A DNA stretch of 36,980 nucleotides from Caldifarciminota bacterium (GCA_003645615.1 QNBE01000006.1:1-36980); one strand, 5' to 3'; positions 7,109 through 31,820 are shown, numbered from the stretch's first letter. Program-made: numbers and translations. Notes: generated by a model from the letters alone, not told the origin.

Positions 7109-7957
7109 ATGGTCAAGGTTGGTGAACCGATCTTCTTAAGCAACATCCTCCTATACCCTCTAACCGGTGAGAATCAGACTGATGGCCTCTTCACCCTTGA
7201 TGAGATCTCAGATCGGGTTGTGATCGAGGAACTCCCTCAGGCCCGGGTTGAGGAGATCGTGATGGAGAACAGGGCCGATCGCCCCTTACTCATGATCGAT
7301 GGTGAGGAGGTAATCGGCGCCCTCCAGAATCGGATCGTGGCCACCAGCCTCATCTTGGAGCCGAATAAGCGGACCAGGATCCCGACCACCTGTGTGGAAC
7401 GGAATCGGTGGGAGGGTGAGTCGAGGTTTGCTCCGGGTCGGACCTGCTCCTTCCCATCCATCCGCGCCATCATCGCCGAGGCCACCGTTCGGGGTCGCCC
7501 TTACCAGGAGCAGGTCTGGCGATCGATCGATGAGAAGCTGAGGTCGACCCGAACCCTCTCCAAGACCTCATCGATGCATGACATCTATGAGAACCTGACC
7601 GATGAGCTCAACCGTTATGTTAGTGAGATGGAGCCGATCCATGCCAATGGGATGGTGATCGTCTGTGGCGATCGGATCTTGGGCCTCGACTACTTCTCCT
7701 CCCGGGAGATCTTCGATAAGTTCAAGCCGAAGCTGATCCAGAGCTATGGTCTGGAGGCGATCGACTATCACCAGCCGACCCGGCGGATCGAGATCGAGCC
7801 CTTCCTGAACCACATCTTCAACGGTAAGAAGCGATGGAAAAGGACTAAGGGTGGTGGTCAGGGTAGGGTTATGGCCCGCCTGGGGAAGGGCTATGTTGCC
7901 CGGGCCCTCCGCTATCAGGACTCTCTGATCCACCTCGCCGCCTTTCCGATTGATTAA
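7109..7957 (+). CDS. ARPP-1 family protein (DUF6569-like)
   Basis: The 282-residue protein matches the ARPP-1 family as I know it. The N-terminal half has LLMIDGEEVIGALQNRIVAT followed by IPTTCVERNRW. The middle has the SMHDIYENL block, then GMVIVCGDRILGLDYFSS and IQSYGLEAID. The C-terminus is the GYVARALRYQDSLIHLAAFP block. The biochemical function of the family is not established to my knowledge. The name comes from proposed association with ADP-ribosylglycohydrolase and rhodanese/phosphatase domains in predicted conflict systems (recalled, not checked). There is no signal peptide, so it is cytoplasmic. Its start is fixed by a leaderless-type promoter. Its last eight bases overlap the start of the kinase-helicase gene, so the two are co-transcribed and probably made in linked amounts. 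Confidence 0.78.
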   Translation: MVKVGEPIFLSNILLYPLTGENQTDGLFTLDEISDRVVIEELPQARVEEIVMENRADRPLLMIDGEEVIGALQNRIVATSLILEPNKRTRIPTTCVERNRWEGESRFAPGRTCSFPSIRAIIAEATVRGRPYQEQVWRSIDEKLRSTRTLSKTSSMHDIYENLTDELNRYVSEMEPIHANGMVIVCGDRILGLDYFSSREIFDKFKPKLIQSYGLEAIDYHQPTRRIEIEPFLNHIFNGKKRWKRTKGGGQGRVMARLGKGYVARALRYQDSLIHLAAFPID

Positions 7958-10442
7958 GACCAGATTCGGAAAATACCGGATCATCCAGTGGCTGGGGGGT
8001 GGTTCCTTCGGCGATGTCTTCTTAGCCGAGGATACCATCCTCAAGCGGCAGTTCGCCCTCAAGGTGGCCCGGATGAGGGAGGAGGATGTCCGGATGCTGG
8101 AGGAGGAGGCCCGGCTCCTTGCCTCCTTAGAACACCCGGCCATCGTCCGGTTCTACAGTGTCGATATCATCGAGGGGAGGCTGAGCCTGGCCATGGAGTA
8201 TGTCCCGGGTCAGTCCCTGAGGAGGATACTCAACAAGAAGCGGTGTCTCGATCTGGTCACGGCGGTAAATATTATTGCCCGGGTTGGTGAGGGAATCGGC
8301 TATGCCCACCAGCGATCGATCATCCACCGGGATCTAAAGCCGGAGAACATCATCGTCTCAGATCGGGGGGAGCCGAAGATTACCGATTTCGGTCTGGCCC
8401 GATTCTTAAAACCGGGCTCCCTCTCCCTCTCGACTGCGGGGACACCGGTCTATATGGCACCAGAGGCATGGTCCGGCCACTATTCGGACCGGACCGACAT
8501 CTGGGCATTGGGGGCCATTCTCTATGAGATCATCTCGGGTAACCCCCCCTTCCTCGCCGACAACCTTGATGAGCTGAAGCGGCTGATCAGTAAAGGGGAG
8601 GTGAAACCGACCCGCCGTTTTCCGGATCGGCTCTTCCGCCTCATCACCCGGGCACTCAATCCAGACCCGGAGCAGAGGCCGGGTATCCAGGAGTTCTGTG
8701 ATGAGCTGATCGGTGGGAGCGGGGTTGAGGTGAAGGAACGGGTGAGGATACCAAAGATCTCCACCACCGAGATCGAGCTGACCGAGATCCAGAGGGAGGC
8801 GATCGAATGGGATGGACCGGTCCTCCTCCTCGGATCGGTTGGGACCGGTAAGACGACCACCCTCACCTATGCGGTTGCGGATCGGATCCAGAAAGGGGTC
8901 GACCCCAAACGGATCCTGGTCTTCACCTTCACCAATCGGGCGGCTGAGGATCTGAAGACACGGCTCCAGCATCTGATCCAGCGGGAGCTAAAGGATCTCT
9001 GGATCGGAACGATCCATTATATTGCGATGAGATTCCTGAGACGGGACATCTACCGCCTCGACTATCCCGAGGATTTTGAGATCCTCTCTCCGGAGGAGGG
9101 GTTGAGGATCCTCTCCCGATGGGGGCTGGGAAAGAATCAGGCACGGGGGATAATGCGGCAGATCAGTCTGCTCAAGGCCCAGGGCTATCGTCCCGGGGAT
9201 CTGGCCGAGGAGACCAAGTGGCAGAGGAAGGTGAAGGGCATCTACACACGCTATCAGGACTACCTGAAACGGGAGGGTTATCTCGACTATGACGATCTCA
9301 TCAATCTGGTGGTTCGACTCCTCAGAGAACACGATGATCTCCGTTCCTATTATCAAAGCCTCTTCGATCATATCTTCTTAGATGAACTCCAGGACATCAC
9401 CCCGATCCAGTATCAGTTTGTCAAACTCATCTCACGCCAGAACCTCTTCCTCACCGGCGATGAGGACCAGTCGATCTATGCCTGGCGGGGGGCAAAAAGG
9501 GAGATCATCTATCAGGCAATGAAGGAGCTTGATGGCCTGAAGACCTTCCTCCTCACCCGGAGCTTCCGGGTTCCGGAACGGATCGGTCATCTCGCCTTAG
9601 CCCTCAAGGAAGGGACCGGAGGGCTATTGCCAAAGGATGCTCCGGGAAGGGTCTCGGTCTACACCGCTGGAAATGAGCTCGATGAGGCAAACTATGTCGC
9701 CGGAACAATCAGCAAGCTGGTCCGTTCCCGCTACAGCTATTCTGATATTGCCATCCTCTTCCGGAATAATGCCCAGTCCCGGGTGATTGAGGAGGCACTG
9801 GTAAGGTCCAGCATCCCCTATCAGGTGGTTGGTTCGGAGAGATTCTATGAGCGGGAGCGGGTCCAGGCCCTGACTCAATATCTCCAGGCCCTGATCCGGA
9901 AGGATGTCGGAAGGGCAACCCGTGCTCTCAAATCGATCCTGAAGGCGAGGGTCCCCAAGGCGATCGCCAACCTCCTCATCAATCAGATCAAGGAGGTCGA
10001 CCACCTCACCCCCTATGCGATCCTCGATGGCCTCCGTTCGGTATCAAAATCGATGGCCCGTGCCCTCAGCCATGAGGAGGCGACCGAGTTCTTAGAGTTT
10101 GCCCGCAGTTTTGGGCCCGGTCAGACCCGGGAGCTCTTAGAGCAGGTAGTCCTTTTGGAGAGTCTCGATCTGGTCGACTGGGGCAGGAATACGGTCCGAC
10201 TCATGACCATCCATTCGGCCAAAGGGCTCGAGTTCAAGGTTGTCTTCCTGATCGGGATGAATGAGGGGATCCTGCCATCGATGCGGGGGACGGTCGATCC
10301 GGAGTCGCTTGAGGAGGAGCGGAGGCTCTGCTATGTTGCCATCACCCGTGCCCTCCAGGAGCTCTATCTCAGCTACCTCAAATACCGGTATCGGAAGCCG
10401 ATCCCGCCCTCCCGTTTTCTGCTCGAGATGTTCCAGCGGTAA
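7950..10442 (+). CDS. Fusion protein: Hanks-type Ser/Thr kinase + UvrD/PcrA-type superfamily 1 DNA helicase
   Basis: One uninterrupted frame of 830 residues. Residues 1-255 are a complete protein kinase: glycine loop LGGGSFGDV (15-23), Lys38 in FALKVAR, HRDLKPEN with Asp128 and Asn133, DFG at 146-148, a Ser/Thr-rich activation loop, APE ending at 172, and Arg243. Residues about 275-830 are a 1A helicase: Q-motif Gln281, Walker A GSVGTGKT (Lys301), motif Ia FTFTNRAA (325-332), motif II LDELQD (477-482), motif III TGDEDQSIYAWRGA (502-515), motif V TIHSAKGLEF, and motif VI EEERRLCYVAITRA near the end. Kinase and helicase are joined by only about 20 residues, with no transmembrane segment. The helicase part (about 555 residues) is shorter than typical PcrA. 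The only start that keeps the glycine loop is TTG at 7950, overlapping the ARPP-1 stop. I know of no standard bacterial protein with this arrangement. Confidence 0.9.
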   Translation: MIKTRFGKYRIIQWLGGGSFGDVFLAEDTILKRQFALKVARMREEDVRMLEEEARLLASLEHPAIVRFYSVDIIEGRLSLAMEYVPGQSLRRILNKKRCLDLVTAVNIIARVGEGIGYAHQRSIIHRDLKPENIIVSDRGEPKITDFGLARFLKPGSLSLSTAGTPVYMAPEAWSGHYSDRTDIWALGAILYEIISGNPPFLADNLDELKRLISKGEVKPTRRFPDRLFRLITRALNPDPEQRPGIQEFCDELIGGSGVEVKERVRIPKISTTEIELTEIQREAIEWDGPVLLLGSVGTGKTTTLTYAVADRIQKGVDPKRILVFTFTNRAAEDLKTRLQHLIQRELKDLWIGTIHYIAMRFLRRDIYRLDYPEDFEILSPEEGLRILSRWGLGKNQARGIMRQISLLKAQGYRPGDLAEETKWQRKVKGIYTRYQDYLKREGYLDYDDLINLVVRLLREHDDLRSYYQSLFDHIFLDELQDITPIQYQFVKLISRQNLFLTGDEDQSIYAWRGAKREIIYQAMKELDGLKTFLLTRSFRVPERIGHLALALKEGTGGLLPKDAPGRVSVYTAGNELDEANYVAGTISKLVRSRYSYSDIAILFRNNAQSRVIEEALVRSSIPYQVVGSERFYERERVQALTQYLQALIRKDVGRATRALKSILKARVPKAIANLLINQIKEVDHLTPYAILDGLRSVSKSMARALSHEEATEFLEFARSFGPGQTRELLEQVVLLESLDLVDWGRNTVRLMTIHSAKGLEFKVVFLIGMNEGILPSMRGTVDPESLEEERRLCYVAITRALQELYLSYLKYRYRKPIPPSRFLLEMFQR

Positions 10443-10483: not shown

Positions 10484-10897
10484 ATGGAACTGAAGGTGAT
10501 GATTCTCCGACTTCTGATCTCGATCCTGGTTGGTGGTGCGATCGGCCTGGAGAGGGAGATTGAGCATAAGCCGGCCGGACTCCGGACCATCATCTTGGTC
10601 TGTCTCGGGTCGACCATCTTTATGATCCTCGGCCTCCACTTCCTCGATCTCGGCTTCGACCTCGACCGGATTGTGGCCGGGGTGATCACCGGGATCGGCT
10701 TTCTCGGAGCCGGTGCGATCATCCGGGCCCGGGGCGAGGTCCATGGTCTCACCACGGCAGCAACGATCTGGCTGGTCTCCGGCCTCGGTCTGGTTATCGG
10801 GGCTGGCTATTATCTCCTGGCGATAATTGCCAGCATCTTCATCCTCATTGTGCTGCGATTGCTCGGGGTGATTGAGAAGGCGCTGGCCAAGAAGTAA
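10484..10897 (+). CDS. MgtC/SapB-family inner-membrane protein
   Basis: The 137-residue protein has four to five hydrophobic helices. The MgtC N-terminal signature is present: LLISILVGGAIGLEREIEHK followed by PAGLRTIILVCLGS, then GVITGIGFLGAGAIIR and the GLTTAATIWLVSGLGL block. This is the short form, without the C-terminal ACT-like cytoplasmic domain of Salmonella MgtC. In pathogens MgtC modulates ATP synthase and phosphate or magnesium homeostasis. In free-living bacteria the role is unclear, so no symbol is assigned. Its stop overlaps the next start as TAATG, so it is coupled to the radical SAM gene. It begins 41 bp after the helicase fusion but has its own promoter. Confidence 0.85.
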   Translation: MELKVMILRLLISILVGGAIGLEREIEHKPAGLRTIILVCLGSTIFMILGLHFLDLGFDLDRIVAGVITGIGFLGAGAIIRARGEVHGLTTAATIWLVSGLGLVIGAGYYLLAIIASIFILIVLRLLGVIEKALAKK

Positions 10898-12183
10898 TGC
10901 GCGCCCTCATCATCAACCCGTGGATCTATGACTTTGCCGCCTATGACCTCTGGGCCAAGCCGATCGGGCTGTTCAAGCTGATCTACATCCTCGACCGGTT
11001 AGGTTTCGTGATCGACTATATCGACTGTCTCGATCGGTTCCATCCCCGGCTAACAAGCTGGCCCAAACCGTCTCGCTATCTCACCAGGTATGGGGATGGC
11101 AAGTATCTGACCGAGGTGGTGGCAAAGCCGGCTCTCTATCGAGATATCCCAAGGCGTTATAAAAGGTATGGTCTTCCCATCCAGATCTTCGATCAGATCC
11201 TCCAGGAAATCGAACCCCCGGACATCATCTTCGTCAACTCAGGGATGACCTACTGGTACTTGGGTCCATTTGAGGCGATCCGGAGGGTGCGCAGTAGATT
11301 CTCCGCCCCGATCGTCCTCGGTGGTGTCTATGCCATCCTCTGTCCCGAACATGCCGAGGAGAATAGTGGGGCCGATATCGTCTTCACCGGTGCGGAGCAA
11401 GAACTGATCGAGATGATCAATCAGGTGTTGGGGAAGAGATTCCCTCCGGTTGAGATCACCGGTCTCGACTACTACCGGATCGGCTACCGATACTACGCGG
11501 AGCTGAGATACATCACCCTCCGGACCTCACAGGGCTGTCCTTTCCGCTGCCCCTATTGTGGCTGGTATCGGATCAGCCCTCACCTCCATCGGGAGGATCC
11601 TGAGGCGGTCGTCGATCTGATCACCGAGTTCCACCAGAAGGGTATCAGGGATTTCGCCTTCTATGATGATGCCCTCCTCTATAGGAGTGAGGAACACTTC
11701 CTTCCCATCTTCGCTAAGTTACTGGAGATGGGGATCAGGGCCCGTTTCCACTCTCCCAATGGCCTCTACTTTGAGGATATCACCGAACCGGTGGCCGAGG
11801 TGATGTATCAGGCCAGATTCATCAAGCCGAGAATCGGCTTTGAAGACCTCCGCCTGAGAAGTGGTGATGGGCTCATCCAGGCGGTTGAGCGACTCACCAG
11901 GGCAGGATACCGAAGGGAAGAGATCTATGCCAATATCCTGGTAGGACTTCCGGATCAGACCGTAGCCGATGTCTACCGGACGATCGAGTTTATCCAGGAA
12001 CTCGGGATCGGGATCCACCTCGAGGAGTATTCGCCGGTCCCGGGATCAGCAACATTTACCGCCGCCGGACTGTCCCGATCCGATGATCCCCTCCGACACA
12101 ACAATACCGCCTACCTCCTCACCCACCCCATCTTTGGCCCACAGATCGATCGGATCAAGCAGTCGATCCGGAGGACTACCTGA
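10897..12183 (+). CDS. B12-binding-domain radical SAM protein
   Basis: The 428-residue protein has two parts. Residues 1-175 have the beta/alpha pattern of a cobalamin-binding Rossmann domain (MRALIINPWIYDFAAYDLWA, then PDIIFVNSG, then IVLGGVYAILCPEHAEENSG, then ADIVFTG). A radical SAM barrel follows, with Cys214-x3-Cys218-x2-Cys221 in SQGCPFRCPYCGW. Such proteins methylate unactivated carbons or rearrange carbon skeletons in lipid, cofactor or natural-product pathways. The substrate is unknown. It shares one base with the stop of the mgtC-like gene, so it is translationally coupled. The pairing with an MgtC-like membrane protein gives no clear pathway hint. Confidence 0.85.
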   Translation: MRALIINPWIYDFAAYDLWAKPIGLFKLIYILDRLGFVIDYIDCLDRFHPRLTSWPKPSRYLTRYGDGKYLTEVVAKPALYRDIPRRYKRYGLPIQIFDQILQEIEPPDIIFVNSGMTYWYLGPFEAIRRVRSRFSAPIVLGGVYAILCPEHAEENSGADIVFTGAEQELIEMINQVLGKRFPPVEITGLDYYRIGYRYYAELRYITLRTSQGCPFRCPYCGWYRISPHLHREDPEAVVDLITEFHQKGIRDFAFYDDALLYRSEEHFLPIFAKLLEMGIRARFHSPNGLYFEDITEPVAEVMYQARFIKPRIGFEDLRLRSGDGLIQAVERLTRAGYRREEIYANILVGLPDQTVADVYRTIEFIQELGIGIHLEEYSPVPGSATFTAAGLSRSDDPLRHNNTAYLLTHPIFGPQIDRIKQSIRRTT

Positions 12184-17269: not shown

Positions 17270-19555
17270 ATGAAGCATGGTATCGCAGTCATACTTATGG
17301 TCTCGGTGATTGGTCTCTATGGAGGAGAAAAGATTATCGAGATCAATGGTGAACCGGCCCAGCTCAGGATTGAGAGTGATGGGTGCTACGACCATCTCTC
17401 CTATTCTGGTGGTATCAGAACCGGCCCTCCGGGTGCACCCGGCCTCCCTCTGGTTCCGATCGTGGTTGTGCTCCCCCAGGGAGCGGAGAAGGTGAACTTA
17501 GAGATCATCCAGATAACCGATGAGGAGGTCCCGGGCTACTACCGGCCCTTCCCCTATCAGAAGCCGATCCCCCTCAACCAGAATGGAACCTTCACCCCAC
17601 CGGACCTGAAGACCTACCAGTCTCAATTCCCGGCCCAGCCGGTCCAGCTGACCGGGGTGGGTAATCTCTATGGCTACCGTGTTGCCTCACTCCTCTTCTA
17701 TCCAGTGCGGTATGAACCAGAAGGAAGACTTTATCTCCACCGAAGCATCCGGCTCCGACTGAGCTACCAGATCGGTGGTGAGATAAATACCGCCTCAGTT
17801 GATCAGCTCCGGAGTGCAAAGACGAACCTGAGGCGGATGGTCTTAAATCCCCAGGATCTCGACATCTATGGGCCGGCCACCTTTGATCGCGATGGCTACC
17901 GGGAGGTCTTCATCACCGCCCAGGACCTCGTCTCCAGCTTGGAACCGCTCCGCTACTGGCGAACCAAGCAGGGTATCCCCTGCACTACTGTTGTCGCTGC
18001 TGACATCCAGAATCAGTATCCTGGCTACGATGGTCCGGAGAAGCTGCGCAACTTCATCATCGATGTCAAGGATAAGTGGGGTGCGGAGTATTTCCTTATG
18101 GTCGGCGATGTCGGTAAGATCCCCTACCGGTTTCTGGGAACTCCAGACTCAAGCATGCCCTCAGACCACTACTTTGCCGACCTTGATGGCGACTGGGATG
18201 CCAATGGCAACCACATCTATGGGGAGTGGCCTGATGACTCGATGGACATGTATCATGATGTCTTTGTCGGCCGATTCTCGGTCGAAACCCCGAGTGAGTG
18301 TCAGACTGTAGTCAACAAGATCCTCACCTATGAGAAGAACCCGCCTTCCGGTTATCTGAAGAAGGCCCTCTTGCCTGCGGTTCTGCTGGGCGGACATCAG
18401 TGGGGAGATGAGGTGAATGACTCGATCGCCAACTGCACCCCGCCGGGCTGGCAGGATATCAAGCTCTATCAATCCCAGAACAATCTCACCCGGTCCGCAG
18501 TGATCAACGAGATCAACTCCGGTGTCGGTTTCGTCCACTACGCTGCCCATGGTAATGAGAATGGGACCTACTGGGCCGGTGGTGTCGATACCGTCCTCCA
18601 CTCCACCGATGTTTTGAATCTCACCAATGGCAACAAGCTCGGTATCCACAATGCGATCGCCTGTATCTCCGGTGGTTTCGACCTTGGTGAGGTGAACAAC
18701 GACTGCTTCGCCGAGCATCTCCATAACCATTCCGGTGGTGGTGCTGTAGCGGTGATCATGAACACCAGGGTCGGATTCTTCTATCCCAGCGGTGGAATGG
18801 GACCTTCAGAATATCTATCCTTCGAATTCTACCGGAAGGCATTCCGGGAGCAAATCTTCCGAATCGGAGAGACCCATTTCTTCTCCAAGGATGTCTATGT
18901 GCCGACCAACGATTTCTTCTACATGTTCTGCATCTGTGAGCTGACCCTCTTCGGAGATCCAGCAATGCCGATGTGGTTTGATGAGCCTAAGAATCAGACC
19001 GTCACCCATCCTGACTCAATCCCCTTGGGAAACCAGAACTATACTGTCACCGTAACTGATGGCTCGAGCCCGATCGAGGACGCCCTTGTCTGTATCATGA
19101 CCAAGAAGGGTGAGATCTACCAGTATGACTATACCAATGCCAGTGGCCAGATCACCTTCCAGATCAACCCCACAACCCCGGATACGATGTGGGTCACCTC
19201 GACTGCACTGAACTTCAAACCCTATGAGGGCTTTACCGTGATCGGACATCCCCAGGTTGGTGAGGCACGATCCCACCGCTCACTCTCCTTCCACCTCAGC
19301 CTTGCCCCCTCCATCCTGACCGATCGGATGACAATCTCCTATGGGCTTACCCATACCACCCATCTCACCCTTTCGGTCCTCGACATCGATGGTCGGGTCC
19401 TGGCCAAACTGATCGATCAGGATATCTCACCGGGCCACCATCAATTCCAGTGGGATGGAACGATCAACCATACCCGTCTTTCCAACGGCATCTATTTCCT
19501 CCGATTGGAGGCTGGCAATGAGTATCGGCTGAAGAAATTAATCATTATGAGGTGA
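17270..19555 (+). CDS. Gingipain-type peptidase (family C25) with C-terminal sorting domain
   Basis: The 761-residue protein has a signal peptide MKHGIAVILMVSVIGLYGG. A propeptide-like region follows (about 20-195; GAPGLPLVPIVVVLPQGA, then YGYRVASLLFYPVRY). The C25 catalytic domain runs from about 205 to 565: REVFITAQDLVSSLEPLRYW, then YFLMVGDVGKIPYR, the acidic block SDHYFADLDGDWDANGN, the catalytic His427 in VHYAAHGNENG, and Cys465 in NAIACISGGF. An immunoglobulin-like module and a type IX-like tail (LSVLDIDGRVLAKLI ... LSNGIYFLRLE ... KKLIIMR) close it. It is a secreted cysteine endopeptidase, possibly processing the co-transcribed surface proteins. The ATG follows AAAGGAGG. It is last in its run, before a strong terminator. 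Confidence 0.85.
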   Translation: MKHGIAVILMVSVIGLYGGEKIIEINGEPAQLRIESDGCYDHLSYSGGIRTGPPGAPGLPLVPIVVVLPQGAEKVNLEIIQITDEEVPGYYRPFPYQKPIPLNQNGTFTPPDLKTYQSQFPAQPVQLTGVGNLYGYRVASLLFYPVRYEPEGRLYLHRSIRLRLSYQIGGEINTASVDQLRSAKTNLRRMVLNPQDLDIYGPATFDRDGYREVFITAQDLVSSLEPLRYWRTKQGIPCTTVVAADIQNQYPGYDGPEKLRNFIIDVKDKWGAEYFLMVGDVGKIPYRFLGTPDSSMPSDHYFADLDGDWDANGNHIYGEWPDDSMDMYHDVFVGRFSVETPSECQTVVNKILTYEKNPPSGYLKKALLPAVLLGGHQWGDEVNDSIANCTPPGWQDIKLYQSQNNLTRSAVINEINSGVGFVHYAAHGNENGTYWAGGVDTVLHSTDVLNLTNGNKLGIHNAIACISGGFDLGEVNNDCFAEHLHNHSGGGAVAVIMNTRVGFFYPSGGMGPSEYLSFEFYRKAFREQIFRIGETHFFSKDVYVPTNDFFYMFCICELTLFGDPAMPMWFDEPKNQTVTHPDSIPLGNQNYTVTVTDGSSPIEDALVCIMTKKGEIYQYDYTNASGQITFQINPTTPDTMWVTSTALNFKPYEGFTVIGHPQVGEARSHRSLSFHLSLAPSILTDRMTISYGLTHTTHLTLSVLDIDGRVLAKLIDQDISPGHHQFQWDGTINHTRLSNGIYFLRLEAGNEYRLKKLIIMR

Positions 19556-19644: not shown

Positions 19645-20481
19645 ATGTCTTTTGCCGGGATCAAGGATCATGATGATCCGCAGGTGATCATCCTCCCCAT
19701 CCCCTATGGTGGGACCGTCTCCTTCGGCCCCTCGGTCCGGAGCGGTCCGGAGCGGATCCTCACCGCCTCCCAGAATCTGGAGGATTATGATGAGGAGCTC
19801 CTCATCCCGATCGATCAACTACGACTTCAGACCCTCCCTCCCCTGCCGATAACTGCCCGTGGCCCAGAGGATATGGTGGAGAGGATTGCAACCAGGGTTG
19901 CCGATCTCTTCGATCCCGGTCGGCTCCTCATCACCATCGGTGGTGAGCATACCATCACCATCGGGGTGATCAGGGGTATCAAGAGGAGGATAGACCGTCT
20001 CTCGGTCATCATCTTTGATGGACATGATGATCTCAGATCCGAATATCAGGCAAGTGGTTACAGCCATGCCTGTGTTGCCCGGAGGATAAGTGAAGAGGCC
20101 CCGGTGGTAATTCTTGGGGTGAGGGGGATCTCACTCCTGCCGGAATCAAGGCCCAGAGGGGTCGAGGTCCTGACCCCTTCCGAGCTGAGGAAGGGTGAAA
20201 GGTGGAAAGGGATAATCGATGAGCTGAGTGACCCGGTATATCTCTCGATCGATCTCGATGTCCTCGATCCTGCCCTTATGCCGGCGGTCGGATCACCAGA
20301 GCCGGATGGCCTGAGCTGGCATCAGCTCACCACCATGATGAGATATATAATTGAAAAGAGGGAGGTTGTCGGTGGCGATGTGGTTGAGCTGGCCCCGCTT
20401 CCCGGCCTTCTCACCCCGGACTTCATTGCCGCCCGGCTGATCATGAAGCTGATCGTCTACTGGGTGGCAAGGAGCCGTTGA
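19645..20481 (+). CDS. speB: Agmatinase/ureohydrolase-family enzyme
   Basis: The 278-residue protein carries the binuclear manganese ligands of the arginase/agmatinase family: His102 in GGEHTIT, Asp125, His127 and Asp129 in FDGHDDL, and Asp203 and Asp205 in SIDLDVLDP. Agmatinases hydrolyse agmatine to putrescine and urea; a formiminoglutamase or guanidinobutyrase role cannot be excluded. The motif has Gly where most members have Ala (D-G-H for D-A-H). The frame is open further upstream to a TTG at 19552, but that extension contains the previous terminator and this gene's promoter. The ATG at 19645 is therefore the start. Its end overlaps the convergent STAND regulator gene by 25 bp. Confidence 0.82.
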   Translation: MSFAGIKDHDDPQVIILPIPYGGTVSFGPSVRSGPERILTASQNLEDYDEELLIPIDQLRLQTLPPLPITARGPEDMVERIATRVADLFDPGRLLITIGGEHTITIGVIRGIKRRIDRLSVIIFDGHDDLRSEYQASGYSHACVARRISEEAPVVILGVRGISLLPESRPRGVEVLTPSELRKGERWKGIIDELSDPVYLSIDLDVLDPALMPAVGSPEPDGLSWHQLTTMMRYIIEKREVVGGDVVELAPLPGLLTPDFIAARLIMKLIVYWVARSR

Positions 20482-23303
20482 ATCCCATCCCCTCCGAGCT
20501 GGAGAAGCTGACCCATCAACCTTTCTCTTTCCCTTTCAAACTCATCAATCACCGGCTCCACCCAATCATCATATAGATCGGCAAAGATCCTTCCCCGGAT
20601 GAGCCGGCTGGCATATCTGATCCGGGCCTGGGCAAGATCCCGTCGGGAGGCCTTAAGATCGGCCAGACCCTGCTTGAGGGTATTGAGACACTCGTCGGAA
20701 TCGAGGATAAAATAGAGGGCGGGATCAAGCTGATAGTGGCCGGAGTGGTAGACAACGACCTCCCGGTTGAAGATCTGTCTAATGCGGTGGAGGCCATTGT
20801 GGAGGAGCTGGGTCGCCTTCTTCAGCTCCAGATCCGGCCAGAAGACCGCTATAATATCATCCCGCCGCTTCGGTTCCTTCCGATTGATCAAAAGATAGGC
20901 GAATAAGGAGAGGTTCTTGCGCCAGCCCCACTCCCGGCCTGAGACCCTCCTCCCCTCAATCCAGACCTCGACTGGACCGAGGATGAGGAGCTGAAAGCAG
21001 TCCTCCTTAGGTGGTTGGGGGAGGGTGGTCAACACCCGCTTCCTCAGGGCAAAATCGAGAAGATCGGGCCGTTCATTCAGATAGCGGTAGAGGAGGAAGT
21101 GGTAGCGGAAGCGGTGGCAGATATCCATCCCCTCCTTGAGATAGTCGAGGGCCTTGGTCTCATTTCTCTGGAGATAGAATCGGGCGCAATCGAATAGGAC
21201 CTCAGCAAGACGATAATAATAGGGGTAGCGGTAGTGGTGGCGGAGGGCGATCCTGAGATAATCCTCCTTCGGGTAGACCATCGCCCGGAGCTGGAGGAGT
21301 CGGCCGGTGACCTGGATCTCTCTCTTTCTCATTCGTGAGAGGGCATCATCGACCACCAGTCTTGCCTCCTGATAATTACTTAGTGCCAGGAGGGCCCTGG
21401 CCTTCGCCTCGACCACCTGAGAATAGGGGATGAGATCGGCTCCAGCCTTAGTCTGGAGATCGTGGAGCTGGATATGATTGAGGACCTGACGGTATTCGCC
21501 CCGAAAGAGGTAGTAGTAGGCCTGGGCGATATCCTTCCAGAGGATGGCGATCTGGTTCGGGCTGATCTGATTGATCCACTCCAGCTCCTCCAGTGCCTCC
21601 CAGGCCCGGTTGAATCGGCCGAGATAGAGATAGACCCAGATCCTGGGGATGGCGATCGATCTCCGCTCATAGAGCGAGATCGGCTGACTGAGGATCTTAT
21701 CTAAGGTCCGATCCGCATAGTGGAGATCACCATACTGGCCTGAATACACCGCTAAGTCGGTAAGCAACTTCAGCCTTTGGGGTGAGGATCTGGGAATTAT
21801 CTTCAGGCACTTCTTCAATACATCAATCGACTCCTTCTTCTTGTGGAGTTGACTATAGGCGGAGGCAAGACCATTAAGGACCATCGCCCTCAGCTCACCC
21901 CGGATCTGATACTCCTTTAAGAAACGGGAAACCCTCCTTTTGATTCTGATCGGCCGGCCAAAATATAGATCGATCCTGAGTAGGGAGGCAAACGCCTTGG
22001 CCACCCCCTCAATATCACCCTGACGCCGAAAGCCGAGATAGGCCTTTCTCAAAAGGCGCTCAGCGGTCTCCACATCATCCTTGAGTAATCTGATCTCGCC
22101 CATAATAAACTGGCCAGCCGGGGTGGCCATCACCTCCTCTGGTATCCGCTCACACCATGCCTCAACCCGGGGATAGCGCTGATAGGCAAGGAGATGCTCG
22201 GAGTTGGCCATGATCTTACTCAGGACGAGCTCAAAGTCGAGACCCTCAATCAGATGTTCGATTCCGAGTGAGAACTGACCGCTCCTTAAGAAGTATCGAC
22301 CGAGCTTCCGGTTGACCCTGATAAACTTCGGGAGGTTGGTATCCTTCAATCGGCTGAGGAGATAACTCTTGAAGAGAGGATGGAAGATATGGTTCTTCCT
22401 GTCCAGAAGGGTGATGAGGAAGATTCCTCGATTTAGGATCTTCTTCAGGAGCCTCTCGCCATCCTTATCGATGAGGGAGACCAGCCGGTGGTTGAGATGG
22501 GGAAGGAGGGAAGCGGTTAAGAGGAAATCCTGTTCTACTTCAGGTAGATCGCGGATGATCTCATCGAAATAGTCGGTAAGATTGACCAGCAGAGACCTCC
22601 GACCAGCCGCAAGGGCATTGAGCCCATTCACCACCGCAATCGCCCAGCCCCGGCTCTCCGTATTAAGGACCCTTGCCTCAGCCCGGGAGAAACCCCGATA
22701 GCCAACCAGTCTTGCCAATTGAACCATCTCATCGATCCTAAACCTCAGCTCCTTCTCAGTAATGATGAGACCACCGAATTTGGTCAGGGTATAACCAATC
22801 TTCCCTTCCGGACTCATCCGGGTCGAGAGGAATAAGGAGAGGTTGGGCGGCCTCCTTTTGATCAGATGATCGATAAGTTCAAGAATCTTGGGCTCATCCT
22901 GGACATGGTGGAGATCATCGAGGACCAGAAAGACCGGATCAGAGATCCGGCTGAGCTCATTGATCAGGGTATCAAGGAGGAGGTGCTGATCCCGAACCCA
23001 GCCGTCAAAGACCATCCGGGCTGTCTCGGTGCCAAACTTAGGATAGCTCCTTTTGATGGAACTGATCAGATACTGGAGGAAGATACCAAAATCCCGGTCA
23101 TTCTCATCGATTGTGAACCAGGATGGCCTCCGCTTCCGGAAATAGCCGGCCAGAAGCGAGGTCTTACCATAACCGGCCGGAGCAGAGATATATACCAGAC
23201 CCTTCCGCTCTCCTTGGGCAAGAAGACGGTAGAGGTTTTTCCGATCAAGCAGCAACCTTGGATTTGGGGGGACGATCTTACTTACCGATAACCTCGCCTC
23301 CAT
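20457..23303 (-). CDS. STAND-type ATPase transcriptional regulator with TPR region and C-terminal SARP-like (OmpR-wHTH + BTAD) domain
   Basis: The 948-residue protein starts with a P-loop NTPase: Walker A APAGYGKTS (41-49) and Walker B VFLVLDDLHHVQD, with the sensor motif LSLFLSTRMSP. This is the MalT/LuxR large-regulator arrangement. Residues about 330-760 are helical TPR-like repeats. The C-terminus is not a LuxR helix-turn-helix: it starts near 770 as FQLLILGPVEVWIEGRRV, with WRKNLSLFAYLLINR and DDIIAVFWPD, then a BTAD-like helical tail (about 865-948). This is the DNA-binding and activation module of SARP activators. It probably binds a ligand and ATP and oligomerises to activate transcription. 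The ATG at 23303 is chosen because a leaderless-type promoter sits 6 nt upstream. A TTG 6 nt further up overlaps the spacing. Confidence 0.82.
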   Translation of the reverse strand: MEARLSVSKIVPPNPRLLLDRKNLYRLLAQGERKGLVYISAPAGYGKTSLLAGYFRKRRPSWFTIDENDRDFGIFLQYLISSIKRSYPKFGTETARMVFDGWVRDQHLLLDTLINELSRISDPVFLVLDDLHHVQDEPKILELIDHLIKRRPPNLSLFLSTRMSPEGKIGYTLTKFGGLIITEKELRFRIDEMVQLARLVGYRGFSRAEARVLNTESRGWAIAVVNGLNALAAGRRSLLVNLTDYFDEIIRDLPEVEQDFLLTASLLPHLNHRLVSLIDKDGERLLKKILNRGIFLITLLDRKNHIFHPLFKSYLLSRLKDTNLPKFIRVNRKLGRYFLRSGQFSLGIEHLIEGLDFELVLSKIMANSEHLLAYQRYPRVEAWCERIPEEVMATPAGQFIMGEIRLLKDDVETAERLLRKAYLGFRRQGDIEGVAKAFASLLRIDLYFGRPIRIKRRVSRFLKEYQIRGELRAMVLNGLASAYSQLHKKKESIDVLKKCLKIIPRSSPQRLKLLTDLAVYSGQYGDLHYADRTLDKILSQPISLYERRSIAIPRIWVYLYLGRFNRAWEALEELEWINQISPNQIAILWKDIAQAYYYLFRGEYRQVLNHIQLHDLQTKAGADLIPYSQVVEAKARALLALSNYQEARLVVDDALSRMRKREIQVTGRLLQLRAMVYPKEDYLRIALRHHYRYPYYYRLAEVLFDCARFYLQRNETKALDYLKEGMDICHRFRYHFLLYRYLNERPDLLDFALRKRVLTTLPQPPKEDCFQLLILGPVEVWIEGRRVSGREWGWRKNLSLFAYLLINRKEPKRRDDIIAVFWPDLELKKATQLLHNGLHRIRQIFNREVVVYHSGHYQLDPALYFILDSDECLNTLKQGLADLKASRRDLAQARIRYASRLIRGRIFADLYDDWVEPVIDEFERERERLMGQLLQLGGDGIQRLLATQ

Positions 23304-23309
23304 AGCCAA

Positions 23310-23337
23310 ATTCTACTACTTCATAAGTCCGGGTCAA
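23310..23337 (-). promoter_or_regulatory. Promoter of the STAND/SARP regulator, leaderless type
   Basis: TTGACC (23337-23332) and TAGAAT (23315-23310) are 16 bp apart on the minus strand. Six nt follow before the ATG at 23303. The TGA inside the -35 hexamer (23336-23334) is the stop codon of rtcA. Confidence 0.72.
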
Positions 23338-24344
23338 TACCGGCCCATCACCTCAACTACCGACCCCTTGATCCTGACCCGATCCGGCAGAAAACGGTTG
23401 ATGATCCAGATGCCCGTCTTTAAGTGATTTGTAACCTGGGAGGTCTTAAATATTGATTTACCGTCTGAATTTATTAAATAGATCAGAATCTGATCGGAGA
23501 GGTGGTGGTCGATCCCGCTCTGCTTTTCAAAGTTCAGAAACTGATCCAAGCACTCCTTCCCTACCACTTCGGCCGGCTTCCCTTTTCTACCCAAGGCGGA
23601 GAAGCCGGCAATCGTCCTCTCATATTCCGCTTTAAGGAAGATATAGGTCCCGGGCCCTTTCGATCTCACCACCTTCACCTCGGTCTCGAGTGGTGATAGT
23701 CTCTCCCTCAGTGGATTGAGCTGGCGGAGGGCGATCGACTCGGGCAGGTTTGCAACCACTGAAGTCGCCTTAAGTCGGACCCTCCCCCCTCTCTCGATCA
23801 GTTCGACCGGTCTCGTCCTTCCTCCCCGGATCAGAACCTCAATCTCACCACCACCTTTGGGATAGAAGCCATAGCTTTTGATCTGGCACCTAAGATCGAG
23901 GCCGAGCTGGATCAGAAAGGGAAAGAGGACCGAGTCGAGGTAGTCATAGATGGGAGCAAATGGGACATGGGTCCCCCCTTTGATTATCACCCTTGACTTC
24001 TCCGGGATCGAGGCAAGGATGGGCAGGACCGCCTGGAGGACCAAGGCGACCGAGCCGGCCGACCCTCTCTCTTCGGCAACATCGAATGAATACTCACCGG
24101 CCTGGACCGGACCGGGTCGGAAGACAAGCTCCAATGAGCCATGCTCATCCCCTGCCACCTCACCCCGTGTGATCTCCTTTACCGCCCGGACCGAGGCGAG
24201 GTGCTGGGGCATAAGCCCAGGCTTCTTTCTCCCCTTCCGGATATTGAAGATCCGGAATGGTGTCCGGGTCAGTCCGGCTAAGGCAAGGCTGTAGCGGAGG
24301 ATCTGACCACCCCCCTCCCCATAACTGCCATCAATCTCAAGCAT
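23334..24344 (-). CDS. rtcA: RNA 3'-terminal phosphate cyclase
   Basis: From ATG 24344 the protein has 336 residues, the family norm. It opens MLEIDGSYGEGGGQILRYSL, the RtcA signature. It continues with GLMPQHLASVRA, GSAGSVALVLQAVLP, GGTHVPFAPIYDYL and YPKGGGEIEV, and near the C-terminus DHHLSDQILIYLI, which carries the nucleotidylated histidine. RtcA converts RNA 3'-phosphate to 2',3'-cyclic phosphate using ATP, via a covalent AMP-histidine. The frame is open 82 codons upstream but that part is mnmA in another frame. The ATG overlaps the mnmA stop by 8 bp, with GGAGG 10 nt before it. There is no rtcB or sigma-54 rtcR in the window; the neighbour downstream is a STAND/SARP regulator. Confidence 0.9.
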   Translation of the reverse strand: MLEIDGSYGEGGGQILRYSLALAGLTRTPFRIFNIRKGRKKPGLMPQHLASVRAVKEITRGEVAGDEHGSLELVFRPGPVQAGEYSFDVAEERGSAGSVALVLQAVLPILASIPEKSRVIIKGGTHVPFAPIYDYLDSVLFPFLIQLGLDLRCQIKSYGFYPKGGGEIEVLIRGGRTRPVELIERGGRVRLKATSVVANLPESIALRQLNPLRERLSPLETEVKVVRSKGPGTYIFLKAEYERTIAGFSALGRKGKPAEVVGKECLDQFLNFEKQSGIDHHLSDQILIYLINSDGKSIFKTSQVTNHLKTGIWIINRFLPDRVRIKGSVVEVMGRY

Positions 24345-25302
24345 CGATCCAGCCTCCTCCAAGGATCCTCTCCCCTTTAGAGAAGACCGCAAGCTGTCCA
24401 GGGGTGATGGCAAAGTGGGGCCGATCAAGGAAGACCTCACCACCAGATCCCACCTCACCCGGGATCGGCTCTGACTGGTAGCGGACCCTGACCTCGACCC
24501 GGATCGGAAGCCTGGGCGGGGTGGAGATCCAGTGGATCCCACCGACCCGAAATCGGGTGGTGAGGAGCTCCTCCCTGCTGCCGACCACAATCCGGTTCTC
24601 CTGACACTCCTTGGCTATCACATAGAATGGGGTCCCGCCCCCAATCCCGAGACCATGTCGTTGACCGATGGTATAGAAGTAATAGCCCCGATGGCGGCCC
24701 AGAACCCTGCCGTTCCGATCGACCACCTCACCAGGTCTTTCCAGGAGTTCTGGATCGAAGCAGATCTCCTGACTTGAGAGGAACTCACCACCAATCCCCC
24801 TCCCAATCTCTTCCACCTCCTCCCGCATCAGATCACCGATCGGAAAGATGATCCGATCCAGGATCCTCTGATCGATAAGGGCTAAGAAGTAGGCCTGGGA
24901 TACCCTGAGATCCTTGGCCTCCAGAAGCTCCCACCCATCACCTCTCCTCTTCCGGGCATAATGGCCGGTGGCAAAGAGATCGGCGCCGATCTCATCCGCA
25001 ATCCTCAATCCGGTTAGGAACTTTATCCTCAGATTACACTCCGGACAGGGGTTGGGGGTCAGGCCGGTATAGAGTCGCTTCTTATAGGTCTCAATAATCT
25101 CGGTTCGAAACCTCTCCTTAAGATTATAGACATAGTGGGGGATTGAGAGGCGGCCACAGATCCTCCGGGCCAGTTCAAGCTGGCAGCACCTGTTGTCACC
25201 GAGGTCAAGGGTAACCCCGACCACCTCGGCACCCCGATCGACCAGGACCCTTCCTGCTGCCGCGCTGTCGATCCCTCCGCTTAAGAGGAGAACAACCCTC
25301 AC
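24337..25302 (-). CDS. mnmA: tRNA-specific 2-thiouridylase
   Basis: The 321-residue protein has the PP-loop SGGIDS (8-13). The two catalytic cysteines are Cys86 in NPCPEC and Cys181 in SSQEICF, separated by the GADLFATGHYARK block. The GRHRGYYFYTIGQRHGL block is typical of MnmA. The enzyme adenylates and thiolates U34 of Lys, Glu and Gln tRNAs. The protein is shorter than E. coli MnmA (about 370), mainly at the C-terminal beta-barrel. The start is GTG at 25302, overlapping the previous stop as GTGA. It lies between the thiamine-binding-protein gene and rtcA, so RNA thiolation and RNA end-repair are co-expressed. Confidence 0.92.
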   Translation of the reverse strand: MRVVLLLSGGIDSAAAGRVLVDRGAEVVGVTLDLGDNRCCQLELARRICGRLSIPHYVYNLKERFRTEIIETYKKRLYTGLTPNPCPECNLRIKFLTGLRIADEIGADLFATGHYARKRRGDGWELLEAKDLRVSQAYFLALIDQRILDRIIFPIGDLMREEVEEIGRGIGGEFLSSQEICFDPELLERPGEVVDRNGRVLGRHRGYYFYTIGQRHGLGIGGGTPFYVIAKECQENRIVVGSREELLTTRFRVGGIHWISTPPRLPIRVEVRVRYQSEPIPGEVGSGGEVFLDRPHFAITPGQLAVFSKGERILGGGWIDA

Positions 25303-30254: not shown

Positions 30255-31820
30255 TCACCTCAATAAGATGAGGCGTTCGACCCCCTTATAGCCTTCAACC
30301 TCCATCTGGATGAAATAGACCCCAGAGGGGAGATCGAACTTGAAGTTTTTGGTATGATAACCCTTGGTAAATCTCTCATCGATCAGAGGCTCGATCCCTC
30401 GACCGGTGATATCATAGAGGCCAAGCCTCACCCGACCCTCCTCCCCCAGCGTGAATCTGACCCTCACCCCATCACGGGCCGGGTTGGGATAGATATCGAG
30501 CAACCTGGTGGCCACAGGGCTTGGTGGAGGTGTTTCCTCCACTCCGATCCGTCGGGTCCGGACCACATAGCACCGCCACGGGTTTTTGGTCTCTTCCCCC
30601 TGATTATGTGGGATCGAGCCCGGATCCTTATCCTCGATATAGGTGATGATTAAGGACCTGCCGCTGTCGGGGAAGTCGACCACATAGGGGTGGACCGAAT
30701 GCCACTCCTCATCCTCACCCTCACCCGGGGTATTGGTCAGGTTGACACCGGTATCACCGGGGGCCTGAGAGCCCCAGGTCTGACCATTGTCGGTCGAGAC
30801 CATCCCGTAGAGCTCGGCATTGTAGAAGCCGTTCTGGGCCTGGTTCTCATCCCTGAAGCCGTGGTAGATGCAGTAGAGGTAGCCATTGGTCGTATCAACC
30901 GCTAAGGTCGGGTCATTGCAGGAGAGGCACCATGCCTGGGGCTGACCCGAGACCTCAAAAGGCCCGGCCACCTTGGTAAGGCCGGTCGATGGCGACCAGT
31001 GCATGATCCAGGATTTGACATAGAGGTTGGGGTGCTGGTAGTAGCCAGCGGTGAAGACGACATGTGGGTCACCGTTTTTATCAAAGATCGGTCGGCAGTC
31101 GGCAAAGGCGACCATCGTATCCGAGGTGGTGAAGTTGGTGATGTTCTGTCTACCCTGCCAGGTCTCGCCGTTGTCGGTCGAGACGTTGATCCAGACATTC
31201 TGGCCGATCTGGCTCCCGGGTATCTTCTCCAGCCAGACCATCATCACATAACCTGGACTGTTCCACCGGTCGGCAAAGATGTCATAGGCCGGAAGCGGGG
31301 ACTGTCCAGGGGTGTTGACCAGCACCGTATCGGTCCAGGTATAACCATCATCGGTCGACCTCAGGTAGTAGATACTATCCTCACCCTGGTAGACGCCCAG
31401 GAAGTGGAAGTAGTCCCGATCATCGACCGCGAGGGCTGGCCAAACGTAGGGGCCGACATAATGCCCGGTCCATAGATACTGGCCTGGACCCTCACCGACC
31501 GCAACCCATGAGCCATCAGTGGTTTGAAAGGTGATAACCGCCGCATTGTTCGACTTCACCCCGACAGCACAATAGCCCGATCTTTTTGATGAGACCGGAT
31601 CATCACCATACCATCCCCCACCAGCCTTCTTAAAGTTGTAGGCACACTTCCGATCCGGCCAGGGGCTGGTCTCATGGGCACGCGTGAAGACGGCATGGAT
31701 GTTGCCGAGACCATCGAACCAGACCATCTGCCTGATGTTGCCGACCCACTGGAGGTCATAATAGGTCCAGCCGATCGAATCCCCTGGAGAGATGATCAAG
31801 AGTATCACCATCACTTCCAT
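30255..31820 (-). CDS. Secreted BNR/Asp-box protein with type IX-like sorting domain
   Basis: The 521-residue protein has a short signal segment MEVMVILLIISPGDS. Asp-box motifs STDDGYTWTD, STDNGETWQG and STDNGQTWGS are separated by blade-like strands. The C-terminus has the full sorting pattern: LDIYPNPARDGVRVRF, then LGLYDITGRGIEPL, then LPSGVYFIQMEVEG, and ends RLILLR. Probably an extracellular or surface propeller. No catalytic signature is visible. It has its own leadered promoter and a GAGGAGGGATT ribosome-binding site before ATG 31820, and is divergent from the alpha-2-macroglobulin gene. Confidence 0.78.
   Translation of the reverse strand: MEVMVILLIISPGDSIGWTYYDLQWVGNIRQMVWFDGLGNIHAVFTRAHETSPWPDRKCAYNFKKAGGGWYGDDPVSSKRSGYCAVGVKSNNAAVITFQTTDGSWVAVGEGPGQYLWTGHYVGPYVWPALAVDDRDYFHFLGVYQGEDSIYYLRSTDDGYTWTDTVLVNTPGQSPLPAYDIFADRWNSPGYVMMVWLEKIPGSQIGQNVWINVSTDNGETWQGRQNITNFTTSDTMVAFADCRPIFDKNGDPHVVFTAGYYQHPNLYVKSWIMHWSPSTGLTKVAGPFEVSGQPQAWCLSCNDPTLAVDTTNGYLYCIYHGFRDENQAQNGFYNAELYGMVSTDNGQTWGSQAPGDTGVNLTNTPGEGEDEEWHSVHPYVVDFPDSGRSLIITYIEDKDPGSIPHNQGEETKNPWRCYVVRTRRIGVEETPPPSPVATRLLDIYPNPARDGVRVRFTLGEEGRVRLGLYDITGRGIEPLIDERFTKGYHTKNFKFDLPSGVYFIQMEVEGYKGVERLILLR

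Follow-up and report, generated by a model that had tools for sequence, protein, structure and literature searches.

A Hanks-type kinase joined to a UvrD-like helicase in one bacterial phylum: a candidate DNA-engaged protein kinase

DNA-damage signalling in bacteria is usually described as RecA/LexA proteolysis, and DNA-linked Ser/Thr kinases, such as YabT, are only scattered. The stretch of DNA analysed here (hereafter referred to as the window) consists of 36,980 nucleotides from a Caldifarciminota bacterium (GCA_003645615.1, QNBE01000006.1:1-36980). It contains a gene (positions 7950-10442, + strand, as for all window features below unless otherwise indicated) encoding a Ser/Thr protein kinase and a UvrD-like DNA helicase in one polypeptide. 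Is this join genuine, how widely is it conserved, and what might a kinase attached to a DNA motor do?

The kinase-helicase protein

The gene starts with a TTG codon lying within TTGATTAA, the stop region of the upstream gene, which it overlaps by 8 bp, and continues as an open frame of 830 aa without an internal stop. The protein comprises a complete Hanks-type Ser/Thr kinase (residues 9-251, positions 7974-8702), a short linker (residues 252-276, positions 8703-8777) and a complete UvrD-like superfamily 1A (SF1A) helicase (residues 277-827, positions 8778-10430; PF00580/PF13361). Pfam matched Pkinase (PF00069) to residues 9-251 (E 3.9e-55), UvrD-helicase to residues 277-526 (E 3.7e-62) and UvrD_C, with its best stretch at residues 726-811 (E 5.3e-46). 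The original prediction, made from the sequence alone, had placed a complete kinase and a complete helicase on one chain, and the open frame and Pfam domains bear this out. The motifs that it had named (glycine loop, K38, D128, D146 and APE in the kinase; Walker A K301, DELQD, GDEDQSIYAWRGA, AKGLEF and YVAITRA in the helicase) were all found at the positions claimed.

Conservation was assessed in an alignment of 49 full-length fusions, drawn from the home class and from further classes of the phylum. In the kinase half, K38, E53, H126, D128, K130, N133, D146, F147, G148, T165, E172, D183 and R243 are invariant (49/49), and the hallmarks of Hanks-type kinases (glycine loop, VAIK-type Lys, alpha-C Glu, HRD, DFG, APE and the C-lobe Arg) are all present. 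The HRD motif with the catalytic Asp128 (positions 8325-8333) is that of an RD-type kinase, with Arg127 conserved in 45 of the 49 sequences, and the DFG motif with Asp146 (positions 8385-8393) is found in all. The activation loop was expected to hold several Ser/Thr residues suited to autophosphorylation; several are indeed present, but only T165, in the P+1 loop (49/49), and S161 (43/49) are well conserved. Phosphotransfer by this half is plausible, as predicted from its sequence.

The helicase half contains motifs Q, I, Ia, Ic and II-VI, which place it among the UvrD-like SF1A enzymes at the superfamily level. Its invariant residues (49/49) are Q281, K301, T302, D478, E479, Q507, R513, R540, G759 and R800, and include Lys301 of motif I (Walker A, positions 8832-8864), D478/E479 of motif II (DELQD, positions 9381-9395) and R800 of motif VI (EERRLCYVAITRA, positions 10314-10352). 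The DELQD lettering of motif II was rejected as a family marker since, although frequent in the home class, it is missing from some fusions. Pairs of sequences share on average 53% identity in the kinase part and 41% in the helicase part; because the catalytic residues are nonetheless conserved in 49/49 sequences, both activities are likely to be under joint selection. Both halves look catalytically competent and, as far as intact residues can tell, neither is decaying.

The helicase half has a shortened 2B subdomain, located in the region between motifs IV and V (positions 9570-10205). Motif III lies 252 residues from motif V in the window protein; the median distance is 258 residues in the fusions and 310 in 78 standalone helicases, and the deficit of about 58 residues relative to UvrD/PcrA falls at the 2B subdomain. 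The tail beyond motif VI is 31-44 residues long in the fusions, versus a median of 120. The fusion helicase has neither the full-size 2B region nor the C-terminal extension of PcrA/UvrD, and it falls short of the equivalog cut-offs for these enzymes (TIGR01073, 394 versus 911 bits; TIGR01075, 354 versus 1144 bits). UvrD-family enzymes are regulated through 2B and its partners (PMC13238157); in the fusion, this regulation may have been taken over by the kinase, or a different regulation may be needed.

A prediction of the full-chain structure, suggested originally as a check, was obtained with AlphaFold2 from 23 homologues (mean predicted local distance difference test score, pLDDT, 81.8; predicted template modelling score, pTM, 0.60). 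The model recovered two folded parts joined by a low-confidence linker (pLDDT < 50 at residues 257-261 and 263-273), but no confident contact between kinase and helicase, and the direction of control is therefore not visible in it. In Foldseek searches, the N-terminal part matched PknB, Stk1 and Aurora kinases, and the C-terminal part matched UvrD, PcrA and Rep (E down to 1.4e-39). The distance across the junction, from R243 to Q281, is 36-46 residues in 49/49 homologues, and this nearly fixed linker length across the phylum hints at coupling of the halves. No conserved phosphosite was identified in the linker.

Distribution, inheritance and genetic context of the fusion

A first search, covering the genome of the window and its 60 nearest relatives (61 genomes), found both halves in one open frame in 34; the 29 homologues extracted were 41-46% identical to the window protein. 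Six of the genomes with the fusion consist of a single contig (G004, G022, G028, G040, G044 and G050). In the phylum as a whole, 66 of 147 genomes gave a match at E ≤ 1e-60, three of them through the helicase alone, which leaves the fusion in 63 genomes spanning 19 families in at least two classes. The original prediction had allowed for an assembly error at the junction, or for two separate genes in related genomes. The window does come from a fragmented assembly (186 contigs), but the relatives are fused, and the same join, with a near-identical linker length, recurs in tens of independent genomes, including the six single-contig ones. The junction is therefore real, and there is virtually no chance that it arose from two neighbouring genes by an assembly or frameshift error.

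Outside the phylum, no fusion match was obtained at E ≤ 1e-72 in 1,214 genomes from five other phyla (those of Planctomycetota, 294 genomes; Poribacteria, 85; Geobacteraceae, 297; Dehalococcoidia, 301; and Actinomycetes, 237), in searches scoring 3-11 candidates per genome in groups with no positive control; in the home phylum, the fusion is detected with six scored. The matches in 22 named genomes from many phyla were to the helicase only, starting at residue 243 or later, and a contig scan with two short motifs, which is no test of distribution, gave ordinary helicases only among the matches listed. The restriction to one phylum is provisional, the nearest sister phyla lying outside the sample. 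A mobile or phage origin was rejected: none of the plasmid and phage records covered at least 80% of the fusion query, and viral contigs matched the helicase only or the kinase only. A literature search found no description of a kinase-UvrD fusion, in agreement with the earlier suggestion that this is not a standard architecture; this is weak evidence, as most subscription papers were outside its coverage and protein databases (such as InterPro) were not queried by architecture. The parts are known, but their combination and its phylum-wide conservation appear to be new.

The kinase domains of the fusions formed one clade against 12 other kinases (support 98/99), and the 49 fusion helicases clustered apart from 51 standalone UvrD/PcrA-type helicases, a sample picked by similarity and not exhaustive (Shimodaira-Hasegawa-like approximate likelihood ratio test, SH-aLRT, 88; quick tree). 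Most of the standalone helicases of the relatives grouped with UvrD/PcrA in the helicase tree. Kinase and helicase pairwise distances were strongly correlated (r = 0.93, reached in none of 2000 permutations), the subgroups of the fusion track families, and within the main families it is retained by most members. The simplest reading of these data is a single fusion event near the base of the phylum, followed by mostly vertical descent as a unit, beside a separate UvrD/PcrA-type helicase. These genomes encode UvrD/PcrA-type helicases at other loci, so that the fusion would not be their general repair helicase. A UvrD/PcrA orthologue with a merely added kinase was likewise rejected, since the UvrD/PcrA-type helicases coexist with the fusion and group elsewhere. 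One standalone helicase of 602 aa (L299, G007:C18:436-2091) has a long branch close to the point at which fusion helicases and UvrD/PcrA diverge, and could be a distinct SF1A lineage.

The overlapping upstream gene (positions 7109-7957) encodes an ARPP-1 protein of 282 aa (PF20208, E 7.3e-60). ARPP-1 is a conserved partner in the window's class, where 34 of the 35 loci have it beside the fusion, usually directly upstream and mostly with an overlap or a few bases between the genes, although the spacing reaches about 320 bases in some genomes; the two are probably on one transcript. Most fusions of other classes are without ARPP-1; it is present in G141 (upstream) and in G122 and G121 (downstream). 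Gln73 (positions 7325-7327) and Cys95 (positions 7391-7393) are invariant in 33 aligned ARPP-1 members. The fold of ARPP-1 was predicted with confidence (pLDDT 95.8, pTM 0.93), and the model had no match in the PDB at E ≤ 0.001; judged from this model, ARPP-1 would be a fold without a solved representative. Iyer et al. 2022 consider ARPP a possible enzyme on sugar moieties and propose an SRAP-like covalent chemistry for it (PMC9503650); an SRAP-type fold is unsupported by the confident model, which lacked a PDB match at this threshold. A second, unlinked ARPP-1 gene is present in most fusion-bearing genomes of the class (G000:C137:334-1191 and equivalents, L205-L252), mostly with a signal-peptide-like start and no conserved neighbours, on which grounds it was set aside; an exported second copy fits oddly with a purely DNA-related role. 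With the fusion, the as yet unassigned ARPP-1 family gains a stable DNA-related partner, making its function testable. Neither this overlapping gene, nor the phylum-wide conservation, nor the reduced 2B region and C-terminal tail had featured in the original prediction.

The other neighbours of the fusion in the class, as read from their sequences, are TsaB-like, RimI-like, methionine adenosyltransferase-like, adenosylhomocysteinase-like, DprA-like, TonB-dependent-receptor-like and DedA-like genes; in other classes, they are AAA_26/DRTGG, HAD, Mur-ligase, glutamyl-tRNA synthetase and peptidase genes. The fusion locus has housekeeping surroundings and is not a defence island.

Known systems and possible functions

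YabT of Bacillus subtilis is activated by DNA, particularly single-stranded DNA (ssDNA), and phosphorylates RecA and SsbA (PMC3708118, PMC6333020). Like YabT, the fusion has a Hanks-type Ser/Thr kinase and a DNA-binding element on one chain, and the logic proposed is the same: DNA in, phosphorylation out. However, YabT binds DNA through a short basic region and also carries a membrane helix, whereas the fusion has a complete SF1A motor and is predicted to be soluble: where YabT-type kinases have a basic juxtamembrane region and a C-terminal transmembrane helix, the helicase begins about 25 residues after the kinase and extends to the C terminus. Activation by DNA, demonstrated in YabT, is proposed by analogy for the fusion. 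The fusion resembles the PASTA kinases of the PknB/PrkC/StkP type in kinase domain type and fold, but has no PASTA domains or room for a membrane segment, the helicase occupying the sensor position; it scored 187.7 bits against a cut-off of 450 for the PASTA-kinase equivalog NF033483, with no PASTA match in Pfam. With UvrD, PcrA and Rep, it shares all the SF1A motifs and the overall fold, but differs in its separate tree group, shortened 2B, lack of a long C-terminal tail and N-terminal kinase.

The best PADLOC matches of the fusion were GajB (261 bits), Mad6 (252 bits) and PD-T4-6 (209 bits). The helicase domain of Gabija GajB and the kinase domain of MADS Mad6/PD-T4-6 are homologous to those of the fusion, but are not on one chain in these systems, the partner genes of which are absent from the fusion locus; furthermore, the fusion is not mobile. 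The score for the Mad6 equivalog was 155.6 bits against a cut-off of 460. The adjacent genes encode ARPP-1, MgtC and radical SAM proteins rather than the OLD-family nuclease GajA of Gabija, and no nuclease recurs in the relatives. An ARPP-1 domain, as in ADP-ribose conflict systems centred on ADP-ribosylglycohydrolase (ARG), is present, but no ADP-ribosylglycohydrolase, Macro, NADAR or nuclease was found among the scanned window genes, or recognised among the recurrent neighbours in relatives. Membership of Gabija, MADS or ARG systems was rejected on the basis of missing partners and scores. The two-gene ARPP systems described in the accessible part of Iyer et al. 2022 pair ARPP with a HIRAN 3'-end-binding protein, a WYL regulator or a deacetylase; the fusion locus resembles them in having ARPP in a conserved pair, with a conserved Cys and Gln, but no pairing with a kinase-helicase is given there (PMC9503650).

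The reading that we favour, tentatively and with slightly less than even confidence, is that the fusion is a soluble DNA-engaged protein kinase, in which the motor would sense or track DNA and the kinase would provide the output. The C-terminal motor would bind ssDNA or a junction (stalled fork, gap or blocked lesion) and translocate with ATP. Its engagement would act on the N-terminal RD-type kinase by altering its state or its local concentration; the kinase would be activated through activation-loop phosphorylation and would then phosphorylate genome-maintenance proteins on or near the engaged DNA. In the window's class, ARPP-1 would be the likely partner, as a substrate or as an enzyme on sugar or abasic moieties at DNA. 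In principle, the fusion would be a bacterial equivalent of damage-signalling kinases, resembling YabT but with a motor replacing the simple DNA-binding tail. We infer the DNA binding, the activation of the kinase by DNA, the substrates and the role of ARPP-1. A DNA-engaged kinase is supported by the residues conserved in 49/49 sequences, the fixed linker, co-inheritance of the halves, the separate UvrD/PcrA-type helicase, the housekeeping context and the precedent of YabT. Several observations weigh against it. Kinase and helicase make no confident contact in the model and the linker is disordered; the fusions beyond the window's class are mostly without ARPP-1, which is therefore not essential to the basic mechanism; and no PP2C_2-family phosphatase that might switch off the signal was found in the window's genome, which has six Hanks kinases above the Pfam cut-off (other phosphatase families were not searched).

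The original prediction had raised both directions of control, each of which is plausible. Reverse control, in which the protein's own kinase would switch the helicase, is the main rival; it is favoured by the reduced 2B region but is somewhat unlikely. Phosphorylation by the kinase of its own linker, or of the reduced 2B, would release or impose inhibition, replacing the regulation of UvrD, PcrA and Rep by 2B and partners. Helicase activity is controlled by 2B, on which MutL and other activators act (PMC13238157), and the regulatory parts, both the motif III-V span and the C-terminal tail, are reduced where a kinase has been added. However, the loss of 2B is not strictly tied to the fusion, as the IV-V region reaches 261 residues, versus 213-219, in some fusions of other classes, and the lack of an identified conserved phosphosite in the linker also argues against this scheme. 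The motor might instead be a mere vehicle, carrying a constitutive kinase along DNA such that proteins in its path would be phosphorylated and released, with neither half gating the other. The flexible linker and intact motor motifs are consistent with this, and Rep and UvrD are reported to aid replisomes past protein roadblocks (PMC2807033), but the near-fixed linker length hints at coupling and the RD-kinase signature (45/49) points to regulated activation, making a mere vehicle improbable.

We give about the same low probability to an anti-phage defence system, in which a UvrD-type sensor of phage DNA intermediates, as in Gabija GajB, would trigger a kinase effector like PD-T4-6 or Mad6. 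The PADLOC matches point in this direction, as does the occurrence of ARPP domains in predicted NAD/ADP-ribose conflict systems, together with ADP-ribosylglycohydrolase, reported by Iyer et al. 2022 (PMC9503650). Unlike typical defence systems, however, the fusion is inherited family by family within one phylum and kept by most members of the main families; it is found on no plasmid or phage record, and its neighbours are housekeeping genes, with no adjacent GajA, ARG, Macro, NADAR or nuclease. A defence role is possible, but less likely given this inheritance and context.

The DNA-engaged kinase can be framed more boldly, as a phylum-wide DNA-damage or replication-stress kinase in which the SF1A motor is a built-in sensor gating the Hanks kinase, with ARPP-1 in one class modifying or cross-linking DNA sugars. 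The fusion would then be a single-polypeptide prokaryotic checkpoint kinase, a proposal that we consider doubtful in this full form. A motor helicase and a kinase on one chain throughout a phylum, with invariant active sites, would directly link DNA transactions to phosphorylation signalling, and the fusion, preserved in a little-known phylum, suggests a bacterial route from DNA trouble straight to a phosphorylation signal. At 830 residues, the protein is of a size suited to simple biochemistry.

Other genes of the window

The fusion is followed, after a gap of 41 bp, by an MgtC-family gene (positions 10484-10897) and then by an overlapping radical SAM gene (positions 10897-12183); because of this spacing and their common strand, both may share the transcript of the fusion. 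The arrangement is not conserved in relatives. Further downstream, a 950-aa protein (positions 20457-23309, - strand) begins with an AAA ATPase domain, the long remainder being without assignment, and the gene for RNA 3'-terminal phosphate cyclase (RtcA; positions 23334-24590, - strand) adjoins MnmA and lipoate synthesis genes. A gingipain-type C25 peptidase and another protein (positions 17270-19555 and 30255-31820) both carry Por_Secre_tail sorting domains; these tails would point to a phylum of the FCB group, and a type IX secretion system is probable in this organism.

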